DNA of 8,384 nucleotides from Pseudomonadota bacterium (GTDB taxonomy: Bacteria > Pseudomonadota > Alphaproteobacteria > Rhizobiales > Rhizobiaceae). Below the pieces are notes generated by a model. That model made no database searches and was not told where the DNA came from. It saw only the letters and a program-made list of their open reading frames with translations. Location of the stretch: the NCBI GenBank assembly GCA_023419995.1, contig JAEZXF010000541.1, forward strand, positions 1-8,384. The letters are read 5' to 3'. Shown piece by piece: positions 1 through 8,384 of this stretch (the stretch's first letter is position 1; each line of letters opens with the position of its first letter). A program made the position numbers and the translations under genes.

Positions 1-79
1 GCGCCGCACCGCAAAGCTTTGTTAACCCTAACATTGTGTAATCGCATCCGATCTTCCTTACGGTCGGTTGGGTGTATCC
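1..79 (+). promoter_or_regulatory. Leader and possible promoter region upstream of the M23 peptidase gene
   Basis: This short stretch precedes the M23 peptidase and is more AT-rich than its surroundings. It contains a perfect 10-base palindrome, CAAAGCTTTG, at 12-21. Next to it, TTAACCCTAAC starts at 22 and resembles a CtrA-type half site (TTAACC), but the second TTAA expected seven bases later reads ATTG, so a full CtrA box is not supported. No convincing -35/-10 pair or strong Shine-Dalgarno sequence is visible. Whatever gene precedes it lies outside the window. Confidence 0.3.
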
Positions 80-1336
80 GTGTCAGGAAACAGGCAGGCT
101 TCGGTATTCGGCAGGCGCAGGGAGCCGCATACCCTCATCATCGCCCGGGGCGACGAGATCCGGCATTTCACGATCAGGCCGTGGCTTGCCGCGCTCGCCG
201 TCTCGGTGCTGGCGGCGCTGGCGATCGGCTATCTCCTCGCCACCTCCTATCTGGTGCTGCGCGACGATCTCCTCGGCGCGGCCGTCGCCCGGCAGGCGCG
301 CATGCAGCAGGCCTACGAGGACCGCATCTCCGCGCTTCGAGCGCAGGTCGACCGCATCACCAGCCGCCAGCTCCTCGACCAGCAGATCGTCGAGGGCAAG
401 GTGACGGAGCTGCTCGAGCGCCAGAGCCAGCTCACCCAGCGCCACGGCCGCATCGGCCCGATCCTCGACCGCATGACCGGCAGCGGCGACACCCCCGCCC
501 TGCCCGCGTCGGGCGCCGCCCCCGTCCCCGAGGCCAAGCCCGAGCTGCGCGCCCTGTTCGAGGCGCCGACCAGAGGCGACGCCGTGGCGGCGTTCTGGCC
601 CTTCCGCCAGACCGACGCCGGCGAGGAAAGCTCGGCCGACCGCGCCGACCGCATGTTCGTCGCCATCAACCAGTCGCTGCGCGCGATCGAGGAAGAGCAG
701 ATCGAGGGGATCGACACCCTGGCCGACAACGCCTTCCAGACCGCCGACACCATCGCCGACGCCCTTGCGGCAGCCGGCCTCGAGGTCGCGCTCGACGAGG
801 ACGGCGACGCCGTCGGCGGCCCGCTGCTGCCCGTCGATGCCGGGCGCGCGTTCGAGGCGCGCGTGCGCGAGCTCGACGACGCGCTGGCCAAGCTCGAGAC
901 GGTCAAGGCCGCCGCGCGCGCCATGCCGATCCACAACCCCGCGCCGGGACAGGCGGTGTCGAGCAGCTTCGGCGTCCGCCGCGACCCGATCCTGCGCACC
1001 CCCGCCATGCATGCCGGCATCGACTTCCGCGCCGTGCCCGGCACCGCGGTCCGCGCCGCCGGCGCCGGCACGGTGGTCAAGGCCGGCTGGAACGGCGGCT
1101 ACGGCCGCATGGTCGAGATCGACCACGGCGACGGCCTGACCACGCGCTACGCCCATATGAGCAAGATCCGCGCCCGGCAGGGCCAGAAGGTCGAGACCGG
1201 CGACGTCGTCGGCGAGGTCGGCTCCAGCGGCCGCTCGACCGGGCCGCACCTCCACTACGAGGTGCGCCGCAACGGCGACGCGGTGGACCCGCTGCGCTTT
1301 CTCAAGGCGGGCAAGAAGATCGCCGGGCTCCTGTAG
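80..1336 (+). CDS. M23 family (LytM-type) membrane-anchored peptidoglycan endopeptidase
   Basis: Predicted zinc metallopeptidase of the M23 family, which cleaves peptide cross-links in peptidoglycan. With the GTG start at 80 the protein has 418 residues: a basic cytoplasmic tail (1-33), one membrane segment (about 34-59), a periplasmic alpha-helical region likely to form coiled coil (about 70-120 and 260-280), a Pro/Ala-rich linker, and a C-terminal LytM domain (about 290-408). The metal and catalytic residues are present: HAGID gives H311 and D315, YAHM gives H359, and HLHYE gives H390 and H392, so it should be active. A TTG at 68 in the same frame would add four residues. I prefer GTG 80 because the conserved-looking tail begins just after it, but the ribosome binding site is weak for both. 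The gene ends convergently with the galM-like gene across a RIME-like repeat. The family call is secure; the exact cell-wall role is not. Confidence 0.88.
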   Translation: MSGNRQASVFGRRREPHTLIIARGDEIRHFTIRPWLAALAVSVLAALAIGYLLATSYLVLRDDLLGAAVARQARMQQAYEDRISALRAQVDRITSRQLLDQQIVEGKVTELLERQSQLTQRHGRIGPILDRMTGSGDTPALPASGAAPVPEAKPELRALFEAPTRGDAVAAFWPFRQTDAGEESSADRADRMFVAINQSLRAIEEEQIEGIDTLADNAFQTADTIADALAAAGLEVALDEDGDAVGGPLLPVDAGRAFEARVRELDDALAKLETVKAAARAMPIHNPAPGQAVSSSFGVRRDPILRTPAMHAGIDFRAVPGTAVRAAGAGTVVKAGWNGGYGRMVEIDHGDGLTTRYAHMSKIRARQGQKVETGDVVGEVGSSGRSTGPHLHYEVRRNGDAVDPLRFLKAGKKIAGLL

Positions 1337-1488: not shown

Positions 1489-2544
1489 TTACAGGTCGCC
1501 CGGCAGGCGGAACCGGTACTCCGTCGCCTGGCGGTATTCCTCGCCCGGACGCAGCACCGCCTGCGGAAAATACGGGCGGTTCGGCGAATCCGGCCACACC
1601 TGCGGCTCGAGGCAGAACCCGGCAAACGCGCGATAGACGATGCCGTCGAGCCCCGGCACGCTCCGGTCGGCAAAGCGGCCGGAGAAGAACTGCAGCCCCG
1701 GCTCGGTCGTCCAGACCTCCATCTCGATCCCCGACATCACCCCTTGCGCCCAAGCTGCCTGCCTGAGCGGCCCGCGCGCCGCCGCCAGGCAGAAATTGTG
1801 GTCGTAGTCCACCTCCCCGCCCGCCTTCCCGAGGCCGATCGGCCGGGCGAGCTGGAAATCGAAGTCGGTCCCCTCGACCGGCAGCACCGCGCCCGTCGGC
1901 AGCAGGTCCTCGTCCACGGGCAGGTAGGCCGACGCCGCGATCGACAGCCGGTGCCCGAGGATGTCGCCACGCCCGCCGTCGTCGAGGTTGAAGTAGGAAT
2001 GGTGGGCGAGGTTGCACAGCGTCGGCCGGTCGCAGGTCGCGGCGAGCTCGACGGAAAGCGTCGCCGGCGCCTTCAGGCGATAGGTGCAGGCGATGTCGAG
2101 CGCGCCGGGAAAGCCCATCGCCCCGTCGGGATCGTGGATCGCCAGCGTGACGAAGTCCTCGCCGGCGGCCGCGACCCGCCACACGCGGCGGAAAAGCCCC
2201 TCCGACCCGCCGTGGAGCGTGTTGCCGCCGTCGTTGGCGTCGGTCGAGTGGCGCTCGCCGTCGAGGATGAACGACGCGCGGGCGATGCGGTTGGCGCAAC
2301 GCCCGACGATCGCGCCGAAGAACGGCGACTGGTCGAGATAGTGTTCGAGGCGTTCGAAGCCGAGCACCAGCGGCGCGGCGTGGCCGTCGATCCGCAGGTC
2401 CTGGACGACGGCGCCGAAAGTGAGGATGCGGGCGGAAAGCCCGCCTCCCGTGATGGCGAAGGCATGGACGGCCTCGCCCTCCGGCATGGTACCGAAGGGC
2501 GCGCCGCCGGGTGGATCAGAGGCCGAGGCCGCCGATGCAGACAT
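1489..2544 (-). CDS. galM: Aldose 1-epimerase (GalM-like mutarotase)
   Basis: Predicted cytoplasmic mutarotase that interconverts alpha and beta anomers of aldoses such as glucose or galactose. From the ATG at 2544 it has 351 residues, the usual family length, and covers the whole beta-sandwich domain. Signature elements are in order: GRCANRIA (81-88), GGNTLHGG with H111, LAHHSYFNL with catalytic-type H182, YDHNF with D247, and the general-base region CLEPQVWPDSPN with E313. An ATG at 2487 (residue 20) would remove the overlap with the upstream gene but would cut the conserved FGT strand before MPEG, so I prefer 2544. Neither start has a clear Shine-Dalgarno sequence, which fits translation coupled to the upstream dehydrogenase, whose stop codon lies 29 bases inside this gene. 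A general aldose 1-epimerase of another sugar specificity is possible; the sequence does not fix the substrate. Confidence 0.9.
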   Translation of the reverse strand: MSASAASASDPPGGAPFGTMPEGEAVHAFAITGGGLSARILTFGAVVQDLRIDGHAAPLVLGFERLEHYLDQSPFFGAIVGRCANRIARASFILDGERHSTDANDGGNTLHGGSEGLFRRVWRVAAAGEDFVTLAIHDPDGAMGFPGALDIACTYRLKAPATLSVELAATCDRPTLCNLAHHSYFNLDDGGRGDILGHRLSIAASAYLPVDEDLLPTGAVLPVEGTDFDFQLARPIGLGKAGGEVDYDHNFCLAAARGPLRQAAWAQGVMSGIEMEVWTTEPGLQFFSGRFADRSVPGLDGIVYRAFAGFCLEPQVWPDSPNRPYFPQAVLRPGEEYRQATEYRFRLPGDL

Positions 2545-3973
2545 ATTTGGTGTCGAGGTAGTCCTCGATCCCCTGATGTCCGCCCTCGCGGCCGAGGCCG
2601 GATTCCTTGACGCCGCCGAACGGCGCTTCCGGCGTCGTGATGATGCCCTCGTTGACGCCGACCATGCCGTATTTCAGACCTTCCATGACGCGGAAGGCGC
2701 GGCCGAGATCGCCGGTGTAGAAGTAGCAGGCGAGGCCGTACTCGGTGTCGTTGGCCAGCGCCACGCCCTCTTCCTCGGTCTCGAACTTGAACACCGGCGC
2801 GACCGGGCCGAAGATCTCCTCCTTCATGAAGCGCATGTCGGGGGTGGCCTGGGCGATGACCGTCGGCTGGAAGAACGAGCCGCCGAGTTCATGGCGCTTG
2901 CCGCCGGCGACGACCTTGCCGCCCTTGTCGGCGGCATCGGCGATCAGCTCCTCGACCTTCTCCACCGCCTTCTCGTCGATCAGCGGGCCCTGCTGCACGC
3001 CGTCCTCGAGGCCGGGGCCGACCTTGAGCCTGTTCGACGCGGCGGCCAGCTTCTCGACGAAGGCGTCGTAGATGCCGGCCTGCACGAAGAAGCGGTTGGT
3101 GCAGACGCAGGTCTGGCCGGAATTGCGGTACTTGGCCGCCACCGCGCCCTCGACCGCGCGGTCGATGTCGGCGTCGTCGAAGACGAGGAACGGCGCGTTG
3201 CCGCCCAGTTCCATCGACACCTTCTTGACCGTCGAAGCCGCCTTCTGGATCAGAACCTTGCCGACCTCGGTCGAGCCGGTGAAGGTGATCTTCTTGACGA
3301 TGGGATTGGTGCACAGCTCGTCGCCGATCTCCGCGGCCGCGCCGGTGACGACGTTGACGACGCCCTTCGGAATGCCGACCTCCTCGGCCAGCGCGCCCCA
3401 GGCGAGGCCCGAATAGGGCGTCTGCGAGGCGGGCTTGACCACGGCGGTGCAGCCGGCGGCGATGGCCGGGCCGATCTTGCGCGCCAGCATCGACGACGGG
3501 AAGTTCCACGGCGTGATCGCGGCGATGACGCCGACCGGCTCCTTGGTGACGAGGATGCGGCGGTCCGCCCACGGGCTCGGCACCACGTCGCCATAGGTGC
3601 GGCGCGCCTCCTCGGCGAACCACAGCACGTAGGCGGCCGAGGAGCCGACCTCGCCCCTGGCTTCCGTCAGCGACTTGCCCTGCTCCATGGTCAGCAGCTC
3701 GGCGAGCGCGTCCTGGTTGTCCATGATGGCGTCGTGCAGCTTGCGCAGCAGCTTCGAGCGCTCGAGCGCCGAGGTCTTGCGGAACGTCGCGAACGCGCGC
3801 TCGGCGGCCTCGATGGCCCGGCGCGTCTCGGCCCTGCCCGCCTTCGGCACGGTGCCGATCTTCAGGCCGGTCGCGGGGTTGATGACGTCGATGGTGGCGC
3901 CGGAATCGGCCTGGACCCATTCGCCGTCGATGAGGTTCGCCTGACGCAGGAAATGACTCGTCTTCTGCAGCAT
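2516..3973 (-). CDS. gabD: Aldehyde dehydrogenase, succinate-semialdehyde dehydrogenase (GabD) type
   Basis: Predicted cytoplasmic NAD(P)-dependent semialdehyde dehydrogenase, most like GabD, which oxidises succinate semialdehyde to succinate in GABA breakdown. From the ATG at 3973 it has 485 residues, close to the usual 482-485. That start has a purine-rich GGAAGAGAG upstream; an ATG at 4006 would add 11 residues unlike the family. The fold is complete: PWNFP with N157, VVKPAS with K180, the FTGSTEVG nucleotide loop (231-238), ELGG with general base E255, GQTCVC with nucleophile C289, and EEIFGP near 385-390. The KPAS segment lacks an acidic residue after the lysine, as in NADP-accepting family members, so NADP use is plausible. 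A second cysteine at 291 matches the CxC redox pair of GabD proteins. 2-Oxoglutarate semialdehyde dehydrogenase is a close relative and an alternative, made more attractive by the coupled sugar epimerase gene. Confidence 0.9.
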   Translation of the reverse strand: MLQKTSHFLRQANLIDGEWVQADSGATIDVINPATGLKIGTVPKAGRAETRRAIEAAERAFATFRKTSALERSKLLRKLHDAIMDNQDALAELLTMEQGKSLTEARGEVGSSAAYVLWFAEEARRTYGDVVPSPWADRRILVTKEPVGVIAAITPWNFPSSMLARKIGPAIAAGCTAVVKPASQTPYSGLAWGALAEEVGIPKGVVNVVTGAAAEIGDELCTNPIVKKITFTGSTEVGKVLIQKAASTVKKVSMELGGNAPFLVFDDADIDRAVEGAVAAKYRNSGQTCVCTNRFFVQAGIYDAFVEKLAAASNRLKVGPGLEDGVQQGPLIDEKAVEKVEELIADAADKGGKVVAGGKRHELGGSFFQPTVIAQATPDMRFMKEEIFGPVAPVFKFETEEEGVALANDTEYGLACYFYTGDLGRAFRVMEGLKYGMVGVNEGIITTPEAPFGGVKESGLGREGGHQGIEDYLDTKYVCIGGLGL

Positions 3974-4030
3974 CTTTCTTCTCTCTTCCGAGGCTTCAGG
4001 CCCCATTCCCGTTTTTCACCTACACAATGG

Positions 4031-4056: not shown

Positions 4057-5007
4057 TCAGCCGAAAACTCGTTGGGCCACAGCCAGCCAGAATCCTGTCG
4101 TCAGCACCGCGAGCGCGGTGGAAATGGTGGTGGTGTTGGAGGCCAGGACCTGCCCGGTGCCGAAGCGCGTGGCGATCAGGTAGGGGTTGACGCCGGTGGG
4201 CATCGCCGCCGCCACGACCATGACCTGCGCGACCAGCGGCGGAAGCCCGGCGAGGAGCACGGTGCCGAGGACGAGCGCCGGCAGCAGCAGCAGCTTCAGC
4301 GCGGCGAGAGCCAGCGCCGGCTTGACGTTGCCCGAGATGCCGAAGTTGCGCAGGCCGAGCCCCATCGAGAACAGCGCCACCGTTCCGGCGATGCCGGCGA
4401 AGGAATCGATGAAGCGCGCGCCGAGCGACGGCATGGCCAGGCCGGCCGCCCGCCACAGCACGCCGGCGAGGATGCCGACGATCAGCGGGTTGGAGAAGAT
4501 GTTCCTCAGGAAGTCGCGCAGCACCTTGACCGGCGAGCTCGCCCTGCCCTCCCGCCGCTGCACCCATTCGAACATGACGATGGACGCCGCCATCATGATC
4601 GGCAGATGGACGGCGAGGAGGAGCGACAGCACCTCGACGCCGGGCCGGCCGTAGACGCTCTGGATGAACGGCAGGCCGAGCAGGAGGAGGTTGGAGAACG
4701 AGGCCGCGACCCCCGCCACCACGCCGGCCGCGACCTCGCGCCCGAAGAGGCGGGTGACGGCGAGGTGCGCGCAGATCCATACCACGGGAATTGCCGAGAA
4801 ATAGGCAAGCCACATCGTCCAGGGCGCGCTGCCCTCCAGCTCGATGCCGATCATGGTGCGGAACAGAAGCGCCGGCAGCGCGACGACGATGGCGAAGTCG
4901 GCGAGCGCATCGCCGACCTGCGGGCGCAGCAGCCCCGCCCAGCCGACGGCATAGCCGAGGCCCACCAGTCCGAAAACGAATGCTATGGTCTCGAGCATCG
5001 GCGACAT
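4057..5007 (-). CDS. AEC (auxin efflux carrier) family transporter
   Basis: Predicted inner-membrane permease of the AEC family (bile/arsenite/riboflavin transporter superfamily), whose bacterial members move small organic acids such as malonate or malate. From the ATG at 5007 it has 316 residues, normal for the family, with about ten hydrophobic segments in two halves separated by a basic loop (151-168, RREGR...VKVLRDF). Typical features are the early helix SPMLETIAFVFGLVGLGY, the NPLIVGILAGV element (173-183) opening the second half, and MPTGVNPYLIA (269-279) near the C-terminus. An ATG at 4998 would shorten it by three residues; a farther ATG at 5085 adds a hydrophilic stretch unlike a membrane-protein start. 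No good Shine-Dalgarno decides between 5007 and 4998. The gene is transcribed away from the phosphatase-like gene and towards the gabD-like gene. Its substrate cannot be read from the sequence; organic-acid transport fits the neighbouring dehydrogenase. Confidence 0.85.
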   Translation of the reverse strand: MSPMLETIAFVFGLVGLGYAVGWAGLLRPQVGDALADFAIVVALPALLFRTMIGIELEGSAPWTMWLAYFSAIPVVWICAHLAVTRLFGREVAAGVVAGVAASFSNLLLLGLPFIQSVYGRPGVEVLSLLLAVHLPIMMAASIVMFEWVQRREGRASSPVKVLRDFLRNIFSNPLIVGILAGVLWRAAGLAMPSLGARFIDSFAGIAGTVALFSMGLGLRNFGISGNVKPALALAALKLLLLPALVLGTVLLAGLPPLVAQVMVVAAAMPTGVNPYLIATRFGTGQVLASNTTTISTALAVLTTGFWLAVAQRVFG

Positions 5008-5041
5008 GCGCCATGCCGGTATCGCAACGCCTTGCGCTCGG

Positions 5042-5060
5042 CAAGGCCGGCCGGGCCTTG
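5042..5060. repeat. Inverted repeat in the divergent permease/phosphatase-like intergenic region
   Basis: CAAGGCC at 5042-5048 and GGCCTTG at 5054-5060 form a perfect seven-base inverted repeat with a five-base spacer (GGCCG). It sits between two divergently transcribed genes, about 35 bases upstream of the permease start. This is a normal place for an operator bound by a dimeric regulator, but no regulator gene is in the window and GC-rich DNA makes such repeats by chance. Confidence 0.3.
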
Positions 5061-5078
5061 GCAAAAAGCGGCTCTTGC

Positions 5079-5106
5079 CTTTCACGGCCCGATCCAGTCC
5101 CTATAT
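5079..5106 (+). promoter_or_regulatory. Candidate promoter of the histidine-phosphatase-like gene
   Basis: CTATAT at 5101-5106 matches the rhizobial -10 consensus exactly. CTTTCA at 5079-5084, 16 bases upstream, is a partial match to the CTTGAC -35 element. Transcription would begin near 5113, giving a very short leader with the Shine-Dalgarno at 5118-5123. Seen by eye only. Confidence 0.35.
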
Positions 5107-5797: not shown

Positions 5798-6082
5798 GTG
5801 ACATCGACATTCGACAAGGTCGCCGACATCATCGCCGAGACGAGCGAGATCGACCGCGACACGATCACGCCGAAGAGCCACACCATCGACGATCTGGGCA
5901 TCGACAGCCTCGATTTCCTCGACATCGTCTTCGCGATCGACAAGGAATTCGGCATCAAGGTCCCGCTCGAGAAGTGGACGCAGGAAGTCAACGACGGCAA
6001 GGCCGCCGCCGAGGAATACTTCGTCATGGAGAACCTCTGCGCCAAGATCGACGGGCTCGTCGCGGCCAAGAACGCCGTCTGA
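5798..6082 (+). CDS. acpXL: Acyl carrier protein AcpXL for very-long-chain fatty acid of lipid A
   Basis: Cytoplasmic acyl carrier protein that, in Rhizobium, Sinorhizobium and Brucella, carries the very-long-chain (about C26-C30) omega-1 hydroxy fatty acid later transferred to lipid A by LpxXL. It has 94 residues against about 92 for known AcpXL, which is longer than the housekeeping AcpP. The phosphopantetheine site [10 protein letters not shown] is present with attachment serine S37. The sequence [19 protein letters not shown] and the tail [14 protein letters not shown] are strongly AcpXL-like by memory. Translation starts at GTG 5798, with GAGGG eight bases upstream; no ATG fits. It is first in a same-strand run with the two ketoacyl synthase genes (48 bases to the next). 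Confidence is high because both the protein and its neighbours match the known lipid A acyl-chain cluster. Confidence 0.96.
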
Positions 6083-6130
6083 CACGACCAGCCGACAGGA
6101 CCGGGCAAAGCACCGCCGGACAAGGACTGA

Positions 6131-7318
6131 ATGAGCGCCAACGACGTCGTCATCACCGGTATCGGGCTCGTCTCCTCGCTTGGCGAGGGGGCCGACCGGC
6201 ACTGGCAGGTTCTCTCCGCGCCGGGCGCGAAGCCGGTCATCGAGGCCGAGCGCTTCGCGCCCTACACGGTCCACCCGCTGCCCGAGATCGACTGGAGCCT
6301 CCAGATCCCCAAGCGCGGCGACCAGCGCCAGATGGAGACCTGGCAGCGGCTCGGCACCTATGTTGCCGGCCTCGCGCTGCAGGACGCCGGGATGCGCGAG
6401 GACGAGGCGCTTCTCTCCGCCATGGACATGATCGTGGCGGCCGGCGGCGGCGAGCGCGATTTCGCCGTCGACCAGGCGATCCTCGATGCCGGCCTCGCCC
6501 GCAACGACCGCGACCTTCTGATCAACGAGAAGCTCACGACCGAGCTGCGCCCCACCCTGTTCCTGGCCCAGCTCTCCAACCTCCTCGCCGGCAACATCTC
6601 CATCGTCCACAAGGTCACCGGCTCGTCCCGCACCTTCATGGGCGAGGAGGGCGCCGGCATCGCCGCGGTCGAGACGGCCGCCGCGCGCATCCGCGCCGGC
6701 CAGTCGACCCATGCCCTCGTCGGCGCCGCGTTCCAGACCGAGCACGCCGACATGCTGCTCAGCTACGAGCTCGGCGGCCTGCTGCACCGCAAGCGCTGGA
6801 AGTCGGTGTGGAAGCGCGCCGCGAACGACGGCGGCGGCATCGTCACCGGCTCTGGCGCGGCCTTCCTCGTCCTCGAATCCCGCGAGCATGCGCAGAAGCG
6901 CGGCCGCGCCGCCTACGCAACGGTGGGCAGGATCGAATCCGGCCGGGCGCGCCGCGCCGAGGGCAACCTGACCGAGGCGATCTCCGGCATCGTCCGCGCG
7001 CTCGGCGCGCCGAAGGAGCGGTTGCTGGCGGTTTCCGGCGCATCGGGCGCCCACGCCGCCACCGGCGCCGAGCGCTCCGCCCTGTCGAGCGCCGGCGACT
7101 TCGCGGTGCGCGGCTTCACCTCGCTCACCGGGCACATGAAGGAAGCGCAGTTCCCCTTCGCGCTGGCGCTCGCCGCGCTCGCCATCCACAACGGCGCGTC
7201 CTATCCGCCCTTCGACCCCGAGAACGAGGGCGCGCTCGACGGCGCGCCGCGCGCGGCGGTCGCCACCGCGGTCGGCTACCGCCGGTTCGAGGGCGCCGCC
7301 CTCGTCACCGCACCCTGA
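6131..7318 (+). CDS. fabF2XL: Beta-ketoacyl-ACP synthase homologue without the active-site cysteine (chain-length-factor-like), FabF2XL type
   Basis: Thiolase-fold protein of 395 residues related to FabF, matching by position and sequence the second ketoacyl synthase of the rhizobial acpXL cluster. The N-terminal VVITGIGLVSSLG is typical of the family. The catalytic centre is not: where FabF has the nucleophile in TACATG, this protein has FMGEEGAGIAA (169-179), with E173 at the cysteine position by spacing to the following helix. The first histidine motif (NAHGTSTP) reads VSGASGAHA (301-309), so that histidine is also gone. Only the second histidine remains, in SLTGHMKEA (H335). The C-terminal GFGGTN gate is replaced by VGYRRFEG. 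Polyketide chain-length factors show the same pattern, with Gln for Cys (EQAGG). I infer a non-condensing partner of the next gene's product. The start ATG at 6131 has AAGGA seven to eight bases upstream. The older annotation as an active synthase is the alternative. Confidence 0.85.
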   Translation: MSANDVVITGIGLVSSLGEGADRHWQVLSAPGAKPVIEAERFAPYTVHPLPEIDWSLQIPKRGDQRQMETWQRLGTYVAGLALQDAGMREDEALLSAMDMIVAAGGGERDFAVDQAILDAGLARNDRDLLINEKLTTELRPTLFLAQLSNLLAGNISIVHKVTGSSRTFMGEEGAGIAAVETAAARIRAGQSTHALVGAAFQTEHADMLLSYELGGLLHRKRWKSVWKRAANDGGGIVTGSGAAFLVLESREHAQKRGRAAYATVGRIESGRARRAEGNLTEAISGIVRALGAPKERLLAVSGASGAHAATGAERSALSSAGDFAVRGFTSLTGHMKEAQFPFALALAALAIHNGASYPPFDPENEGALDGAPRAAVATAVGYRRFEGAALVTAP

Positions 7319-7321
7319 GAC

Positions 7322-7328
7322 GGAGGAG
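7322..7328 (+). promoter_or_regulatory. Strong Shine-Dalgarno sequence setting the GTG start of the second synthase
   Basis: GGAGGAG lies six bases upstream of GTG 7335. It fits the start well and supports efficient translation of the catalytic synthase relative to the upstream, presumed non-catalytic one. Confidence 0.7.
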
Positions 7329-7334
7329 CAAGCC

Positions 7335-8384
7335 GTGGCACGCACCACCGATCATCTGGGCCGCCCCGTCGTCGCCGTCACCGGCGTCGGCGTCGTCACC
7401 TCGCTCGGCCAGGGCGTGGCCGACAACTGGGCCGCGCTGACCTCCGGCCGCTCGGGCATCCGCCCGATCACGCGCTTCCCCGTCGAGCACCTCGCCACCA
7501 CCATCTCGGGGATGGTCGACTTCCTGCCGTCGAGCGGCAAGGGCTCGAGCGCCCTGACCTACGAGCTGGCCGAGCTCGCCGCGCTCGAGGCGGTGGCCCG
7601 CGCGGGCTTCAAGGTCGGCGATTTCGCCGGCCCGCTGTTCCTCGCCTCGCCGCCGGTCGAGGTCGACTGGCACGACCGCTTCCGCCTCTACGCCGCCGCC
7701 GACCTGGCCCTGCCCGAATATGAGCGGCTTCTGGCCGCCGCCCGCGAGGACCTGAGCGAGGCGACGCTGGAATCCTCCCAGTTCGGCGCGATCGCCGACC
7801 GGCTCGCCGACCGCTTCGGCACGCGCGGCCTGCCCATCACGCTGTCGACGGCCTGCGCTTCCGGCGCGACCGCGATCCAGCTCGGCGTCGAGGCCATCCG
7901 CCGCGGCGAGGCCGACCGTGCGCTCTCGATCGGCTCCGACGGCTCGGCGACCGCCGAGGCGCTGATCCGCTTCTCGCTGCTTTCCGCGCTTTCGACCCAC
8001 AACGAGGACCCCGAGAAGGCCTCCAAGCCGTTCTCGCGCGACCGCGACGGCTTCGTGCTGGCCGAGGGTTCGGCCGCACTGGTGCTGGAATCGCTCGACA
8101 GCGCGCTGGCGCGCGGCGCGAAGGTGCTCGGCATCGTCCGCGGCTGCGGCGAGAAGGCCGACGACTTCCACCGCACCCGCTCGAAGCCGGACGGCTCGCC
8201 GGCGATCGCCGCCGTGCGCGCCGCCCTCGCCGACGCCGGGCTCGGCGAGGACGGCGTCGACTACGTCAACGCCCACGGCACATCGACGCCCGAGAACGAC
8301 AAAATGGAGCACCTGTCGCTGTCGACCGTGTTCGGCGAGCGCATGAAGAGCGTGCCCGTCTCGTCCAACAAGTCGATGATCGGC
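7335..8384 (+). CDS. fabF1XL: Beta-ketoacyl-ACP synthase II, FabF1XL type (3' end beyond the window)
   Basis: Condensing enzyme of the FabF class that would extend the AcpXL-bound acyl chain with malonyl-ACP. The visible part is 350 residues from GTG 7335; the window ends just before the expected second histidine (last residues SSNKSMIG, normally followed by H), so about 70-80 residues are missing. The nucleophile is intact in LSTACASGATAIQ (C174), the first histidine is present in YVNAHGTSTPEND (H314), and FSRDRDGFVLAEGSAALVLE (233-252) is the usual family segment. An insert of about 20-30 residues around 105-150 (PPVEVDWHDRF to ESSQFG) gives a bulkier region before the active site than in E. 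coli FabF. The gene begins 16 bases after the degenerate synthase ends, so the two are almost certainly cotranscribed and made together. FabF1XL is assigned from gene order and resemblance; the class is certain. Confidence 0.92.
   Translation, partial: MARTTDHLGRPVVAVTGVGVVTSLGQGVADNWAALTSGRSGIRPITRFPVEHLATTISGMVDFLPSSGKGSSALTYELAELAALEAVARAGFKVGDFAGPLFLASPPVEVDWHDRFRLYAAADLALPEYERLLAAAREDLSEATLESSQFGAIADRLADRFGTRGLPITLSTACASGATAIQLGVEAIRRGEADRALSIGSDGSATAEALIRFSLLSALSTHNEDPEKASKPFSRDRDGFVLAEGSAALVLESLDSALARGAKVLGIVRGCGEKADDFHRTRSKPDGSPAIAAVRAALADAGLGEDGVDYVNAHGTSTPENDKMEHLSLSTVFGERMKSVPVSSNKSMIG

Follow-up and report, generated by a model that had tools for sequence, protein, structure and literature searches.

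The window analyzed here, an 8,384-nucleotide stretch of contig JAEZXF010000541.1 from a member of the Rhizobiaceae, contained an acyl carrier protein gene, acpXL, followed by two genes for ketosynthase homologs, fabF2XL and fabF1XL. AcpXL serves the very-long-chain fatty acid of lipid A, which matters for outer membrane strength in rhizobia, agrobacteria, and their relatives. The relationship between the two ketosynthase homologs, only one of which has the residues of an active enzyme, is the subject of this analysis. The three genes were:

5798..6082, + strand: acpXL, carrier protein of the very-long-chain acyl group of lipid A (NCBIfam NF005079; score 180.9 bits, cut-off 83)
6131..7318, + strand: fabF2XL, ketosynthase homolog without the catalytic Cys, 395 amino acids (NCBIfam NF005084, i.e. 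PRK06519, FabF2XL orthologs; 595.4 bits against a cut-off of 320)
7335..8384, + strand, cut by the window end: fabF1XL, ketosynthase with C174 and H314 intact, first 350 codons (NCBIfam NF005076, 593 bits)

The start codon of acpXL was read from the sequence as GTG, and fabF1XL begins 16 bases after the stop codon of fabF2XL. The NF005076 cut-off of 629 applies to the whole protein, and fabF1XL, scored over the 350 residues present, fell below it only because the gene is cut by the window end; a full-length Sinorhizobium relative scored 770. FabF2XL scored far below the cut-off of the TIGR03150 fabF model (75.9 against 493.75), and the domain scan did not call the C-terminal domain PF02801 in it; structure comparison of a FabF2XL model aligned the whole fold (1..395). 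Among the matches listed, the nearest database protein to FabF2XL was 98% identical, and the named relatives were from the Phyllobacteriaceae, such as Aquamicrobium and Mesorhizobium.

Fate of the ketosynthase catalytic site

Residues were counted in two sets. The main set comprised 157 distinct FabF2XL proteins from 159 loci, aligned with E. coli FabF and given in mature E. coli numbering. The second comprised 240 listed homologs, the nearest relatives of two queries: for each query the best-scoring 120 database proteins were taken, out of 7999 scored in one search and 8000 in the other. The positions of FabF2XL that stood out were:

6452..6460, + strand: E108-R109-D110, an almost invariant charged loop (each residue in 240/240 listed homologs)
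6644..6649, + strand: E172-E173, at the Ala-Cys nucleophile elbow (E172 in 240/240 listed homologs; residue 173 is E in 232 and D in 8)
7133..7135, + strand: H335, counterpart of FabF His340 (240/240 listed homologs; 143/157 in the locus set)
7289..7291, + strand: E387, in the degenerate gate loop (238/240 listed homologs)

A preliminary description of this DNA had reported Glu at the nucleophile position (FMGEEGAG, E173), loss of the first catalytic His and of the GFGGTN gate with H335 retained, and a neighboring gene 16 bases away with C174 and H314 intact. Translation confirmed these residues and coordinates. In the window protein MGEEGAG spans residues 170-176, VSGASGAHA spans residues 301-309, H335 lies in LTGHM, and the gate loop has degenerated to GYRRFEG. 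E173 stands opposite Cys163 of E. coli FabF, as seen in the alignment of GPSISIATACTSG over GSSRTFMGEEGAG.

Across the 157 locus proteins, the Cys163 column held E in 153 and D in 4, and the residue preceding it was E in every protein. The His303 column held S (111), T (35), C (6), N (3), G (1), and one gap, but never His, and neither Lys at the Lys335 column nor Asn at the Asn404 column was seen in any of the 157. The His340 column retained His in 143, with 13 other residues and one gap; the two sets disagree at this position because the 240 listed homologs are the nearest relatives of two queries. Thus none of the FabF2XL proteins had the Cys (157 proteins) or the first His (156 proteins with a letter) of the Cys-His-His triad of active FabF/KAS II (beta-ketoacyl-ACP synthase II). 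The preliminary description had also regarded the GEEGAG segment as a family trait, and an acidic residue at the nucleophile position in all 240 listed homologs and all 157 distinct locus proteins bore this out. This pattern of losses is a trait of the family, far beyond chance, and not a local mutation.

Inspection of the Cys and His columns against E. coli FabF, which had been suggested earlier, revealed no conserved triad elsewhere in the protein. The window FabF2XL contains no Cys at all; 20 of the 159 FabF2XL proteins are wholly Cys-free, and the others carry Cys elsewhere. Among 81 close relatives no conserved Cys column was found except column 95, which was Cys in 72 and not Cys in the window protein. 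H308 lies close to the lost first His and was His in 79 of the 81 close relatives, but its column was His in only 86 of the 157 proteins, so that it is not a conserved substitute.

FabF1XL had the opposite character. C174 and H314 are present in the window, and the second His lies past the window end. In the locus set the Cys was present in 152 of the 153 proteins with a letter (one X), His303 in 152/152, and His340 in 151/151, and all 120 listed FabF1XL homologs had the Cys and both His. One FabF1XL homolog of 576 amino acids (P0247) has its middle part repeated internally, possibly as an assembly artifact.

Linkage and divided conservation of the two genes

The 159 loci consisted of the window, 80 named loci, 3 from a plasmid collection, and 75 regions of other genomes. 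FabF1XL was encoded directly downstream of FabF2XL in 157 of them; the two others were a contig that ends inside fabF2XL (L149) and a locus designated L168. The order acpXL-fabF2XL-fabF1XL was found in 80/80 named loci, and AcpXL was encoded upstream of FabF2XL in 151 of the 159. The eight loci without AcpXL comprised two contig ends (L139 and L208), a plasmid copy (L135), one related group of four (L155, L156, L158, and L159), and L168. In a sample of the class, FabF2XL was found in 15 of 289 genomes and AcpXL in 14, all within those 15, and in the remaining genome (G237) the contig ends. Of these 15 genomes, 14 had a FabF1XL match with an E-value of 1e-147 or lower, the miss (G233) being a contig-end case, whereas FabF1XL was absent from 20 of 20 FabF2XL-free genomes checked (of 274 others), in which the best match was 8.7e-64. 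Scores above the cut-off of the FabF2XL family occurred in 63 of 249 genomes sampled from the order and in 28 of 299 sampled from the phylum.

Several loci had unusual arrangements. L168 (genome G339, contig C461) carries a second FabF2XL copy followed by thioredoxin-like and other genes, and could be a mixed assembly. On a plasmid of Bradyrhizobium sp. Ash2021 (L135:4231-7486), a methyltransferase gene runs straight into fabF2XL-fabF1XL with no acpXL nearby; this is a mobile extra copy of the pair. The four loci of the related group (genomes G352, G305, G447, and G388) contain fabF2XL-fabF1XL with no acpXL within 3.5 kb, and each of these genomes has a second, partial fabF2XL match. The distance between acpXL and fabF2XL also varied: it was less than 200 bases in 89 of the 151 loci with acpXL, the window included, and at least 450 in 62. 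At 6083-6130 the window has no fabZXL and no gap of the size of that gene; the 62 wider intervals lie at the place that holds the dehydratase gene in S. meliloti.

Column conservation was compared among 60 FabF2XL proteins of the order sample, the 60 FabF1XL proteins encoded beside them, and 27 housekeeping FabF proteins of that order, which were left after 3 plasmid-type paralogs had been removed from a set of 30 loci. Mean column identity over FabF residues 67-90 was 0.82 in FabF2XL, 0.40 in FabF1XL, and 0.66 in housekeeping FabF; over residues 98-125 it was 0.48, 0.26, and 0.60; and over residues 126-160 it was 0.86, 0.45, and 0.82, respectively. In all 13 other segments FabF2XL was less conserved than FabF1XL, while FabF was high in segments of both kinds. 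The identity of the first His loop was 0.87 in FabF1XL and 0.86 in FabF vs 0.42 in FabF2XL, that of the Lys-second His loop 0.86 and 0.88 vs 0.48, and that of the gate loop 0.85 and 0.96 vs 0.59. A separate run of the comparison gave the same trend. The two proteins thus divide between them the conservation of one FabF, which fits a heterodimer of the type formed by a ketosynthase (KS) and a chain length factor (CLF).

Published structures identify the segments that FabF2XL keeps better as sites of carrier docking and dimer contact. In E. coli FabF, the residues that dock the acyl carrier protein AcpP are Lys65, Arg68, Lys69, Arg127, Lys128, Arg206, and Thr270, together with a patch at 129-132 and 205-206, and the monomer without the acyl group supplies most of the contacts to the carrier (PMC7138838). 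The FabF dimer contact is formed by helices 4-7 and strand 5, at about residues 140-180 (PMC5206705), and the acyl channel of KasA takes in helix 5 of the partner (PMC9519891). Two counterparts of the docking residues were prominent in FabF2XL:

6326..6328, + strand: R66, counterpart of FabF Arg68, carrier docking (R in 157/157 FabF2XL, 4/155 FabF1XL)
6548..6556, + strand: R140-P141-T142, counterpart of FabF Ser130-Pro131-Phe132, carrier docking and hydrophobic patch (each in 157/157 FabF2XL, variable in FabF1XL)

Over the twelve docking positions of PMC7138838, the rank contrast of FabF2XL over FabF1XL was 0.39, a value reached by 15 of 403 circular shifts. The best-kept residues of FabF2XL match carrier-docking positions, which suggests that holding AcpXL may be its primary task and contributing to the channel a secondary one.

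Known pairs of active and inactive ketosynthases

As a positive control, 15 pairs of KS-alpha and CLF from Streptomyces plasmids were analyzed in the same way. The CLF was better conserved than the KS in segments 67-90, 98-125, and 126-160, and slightly so in 36-66 and at the elbow. The CLF-minus-KS profile correlated with the FabF2XL-minus-FabF1XL profile at r 0.236, a weak but significant value: counting the unshifted alignment itself, 4 of 403 shifts gave a correlation this high.

As in actinorhodin-type systems (1TQY), an active KS adjoins a Cys-less KS homolog here, the first His is lost, an acidic residue precedes the nucleophile site, and the dead partner shows the better conservation in the N-terminal segments for docking and dimer contact. 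In the reference CLFs that preceding residue was E in 13 and D in 2 of 15, and in FabF2XL it was E in 60/60, whereas the active KS sets had Ala or Gly. There were also clear differences. The nucleophile site of the CLFs held Q in 14 and G in 1 of 15, with no Cys, where FabF2XL has Glu or Asp. The CLFs had D at the His303 column and R at the His340 column and kept Lys335 (15/15 each), unlike FabF2XL, which mostly keeps His340 and loses Lys335. Furthermore, the gene of the dead partner comes first here, and the product is a fatty acid rather than a polyketide. In a phylogenetic tree FabF2XL formed one clade (support 100/100, stem 2.03) that grouped weakly with the CLFs (66/42), and joining it to FabF1XL was not rejected by the approximately unbiased test (p-AU 0.456); common ancestry with the CLFs is a possibility on this evidence. 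Because of the ambiguous tree, the Glu in place of Gln, and a mostly kept His that the CLFs lack, FabF2XL was not filed as a CLF.

Two other KS/CLF systems offer parallels. ApeO-ApeC of aryl polyene synthesis is a Gram-negative KS/CLF heterodimer in which ApeC retains mainly the first half of the thiolase fold (PMC8358021), the half that FabF2XL keeps best; the heterodimer in the present case is predicted. ApeC is half-size (240 amino acids in E. coli CFT073), whereas FabF2XL has the full length and only its second half is degenerate. A short CLF of the ApeC type, with the second half of the thiolase fold absent, was ruled out for FabF2XL, in which 395 amino acids aligned over the whole fold. 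The KS/CLF pair of ishigamide synthesis, Iga11-Iga12 (6KXD-6KXF), makes a reduced-type chain with a dehydratase, and its carrier contacts mainly the CLF (PMC8358021), a likeness to FabF2XL docking that is predicted here. The KS chain of Iga11-Iga12 was one of the nearest structural matches of the FabF2XL model; the system differs in its polyene amide product and actinobacterial origin. Finally, the E. coli FabF homodimer resembles the pair in its fold, in the positions of its docking segments, and, as predicted for the pair, in that the partner monomer supplies most carrier contacts (PMC7138838), but combines in one protein both jobs that FabF1XL and FabF2XL appear to split.

A predicted heterodimer dedicated to AcpXL

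Taken together, the evidence indicates that FabF2XL and FabF1XL are probably a KS/CLF-like pair. In an obligate heterodimer, FabF2XL would be the subunit without catalytic activity and the intact ketosynthase encoded next to it the active one. A heterodimer of this kind, dedicated to AcpXL, is likely and is the best reading of the data, with dimerization itself inferred. The KS/CLF interpretation was first put forward in the preliminary description. The conserved pairing of a degenerate and an intact protein, the near inseparability of their genes, the divided conserved surface, and the Streptomyces control speak for it; the Glu instead of Gln and the mostly kept His340 do not follow the CLF pattern. 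In that description the pair was also thought to fix the chain at C26-C30. That FabF2XL would act as such a length ruler is about an even proposition and clearly less probable than the pairing itself.

Under this model, AcpXL with the growing chain would dock mainly on FabF2XL, much as AcpP makes most of its contacts with the partner monomer of E. coli FabF, and its arm would enter the neighboring site of FabF1XL. The chain would be loaded on C174 of FabF1XL and condensed with malonyl-AcpXL by C174 and the two His. Its tail would follow the interface between the subunits in the direction of FabF2XL, where the active site would be shut; loss of this second site would let the channel continue into FabF2XL, which would thereby form part of the channel that takes the very long chain.

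Genetic data from other groups bear on this model. An insertion mutant of fabF2XL in Agrobacterium fabrum C58 has lipid A without the very-long-chain fatty acid, and supplying only fabF2XL on a plasmid brings it back in part (PMC11901934). FabF1XL is still encoded in this mutant, which argues, subject to caveats of polarity and partial complementation, that the Cys-less FabF2XL is itself needed. In Bradyrhizobium ORS278, attempts to disrupt either fabF gene did not succeed (PMC5613085).

Several observations weigh against the heterodimer. The charged set of E108-R109-D110, E172-E173, H335, and E387 is kept more strictly than a dead site needs. At docking positions 205, 206, and 270 it is FabF1XL that is conserved rather than FabF2XL, which keeps only Arg68 of the basic docking residues of FabF, plus a new Arg at 130; with most of these residues gone, the docking chemistry has changed. 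The catalytic-site contrast depends on the alignment (reached by 15 of 403 shifts in one run and 48 of 403 in another). The CLF/KS pairs showed a weak contrast over the twelve docking positions (0.13, 55 of 403 shifts) and no catalytic contrast (0.007). L168 encodes a FabF2XL copy without an adjoining FabF1XL, the A. fabrum allele is an insertion that is possibly polar on fabF1XL and only partially complemented (PMC11901934), and a tethered single-chain AlphaFold model of the pair gave no confident complex, with a predicted template modeling score (pTM) of 0.67 and a poor FabF1XL half.

The strict conservation of the charged set could also mean that the active site has been repurposed. FabF2XL would then have its own chemistry, such as decarboxylation of malonyl-AcpXL to prime or feed the cycle via E173, H335, and nearby acidic residues, with FabF1XL as the condensing enzyme. 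A change of Cys to Gln leads to decarboxylation in other ketosynthases, and the PDB lists C163Q FabF among its titles, in line with this. E172, H335, and E108-R109-D110 in 240/240, E or D at 173 in all 240, and E387 in 238 of the listed homologs would suit such a role. Yet His303, Lys335, and Asn404 are lost, the H335 counterpart is not His in 13 of 156 proteins of the wider set, and the most conserved parts are the segments for docking and dimerization rather than the old active site; furthermore, lengthening a preformed long chain should need no malonyl-derived primer. Malonyl decarboxylases of the KSQ type have Gln at the Cys site and keep both His. FabF2XL, with Glu or Asp at this site and the first His lost, was rejected as a member of this type by its residues. 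The decarboxylation alternative raised in the preliminary description is thus weak overall, helped by the mostly kept His340 and the almost invariant acidic set and hurt by the lack of Gln plus both His, and chemistry of its own for FabF2XL is unlikely. The charged set may brace the interface, or it may have an active function.

It is quite unlikely that FabF2XL is a separate carrier-binding or scaffold protein of the AcpXL operon, a homodimer or monomer that shares no active site, beside an ordinary FabF1XL homodimer. Were FabF1XL an ordinary homodimer, its docking and dimer segments ought to be well kept, but they are the regions in which it is conserved least (0.26-0.45 vs 0.60-0.82 in FabF), and the near-invariable pairing of the two proteins also argues against separate roles. 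That they are two ordinary, independently active synthases, FabF2XL with Glu or another residue as nucleophile, is highly improbable given the loss of the Cys, His303, Lys335, and Asn404 columns, the lack of a conserved Cys/His/His, and the lack of a family-wide Cys column among the 81 close relatives besides column 95, even though, as had been noted earlier, both genes are usually annotated in this way (beta-ketoacyl-ACP synthase in NCBIfam, 3-oxoacyl-ACP synthase II in PMC11901934) and PMC11901934 and PMC5613085 treat both proteins as ordinary elongation enzymes.

The KS/CLF-like heterodimer would bring a known principle, an active ketosynthase paired with a catalytically dead one, to a new setting, lipid A fatty acid synthesis, where databases and papers still name two ordinary synthases. 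If it is correct, the polyketide KS/CLF principle extends to bacterial lipid A fatty acid synthesis, FabF2XL gains a defined role in carrier docking and the channel, there is a physical reason for the exclusivity of AcpXL, and the pair would help to account for the synthesis of chains of this length; what sets chain length could then be tested by residue changes and partner swaps. A bolder version, possible but doubtful, is that the pair forms a class of half-dead ketosynthase of its own, evolved independently as the third such class and the first to serve lipid A. One subunit would then carry out catalysis, the dead one would be both the exclusive landing site of AcpXL and the C26-C30 ruler, and the almost invariant acidic pocket of E108-R109-D110, E172-E173, H335, and E387 would be a new working part and no relic.

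The other genes of the window were ordinary neighbors:

68-1336: M23 peptidase
1489-2544: aldose 1-epimerase
2516-4006: aldehyde dehydrogenase
4057-5085: membrane transport protein

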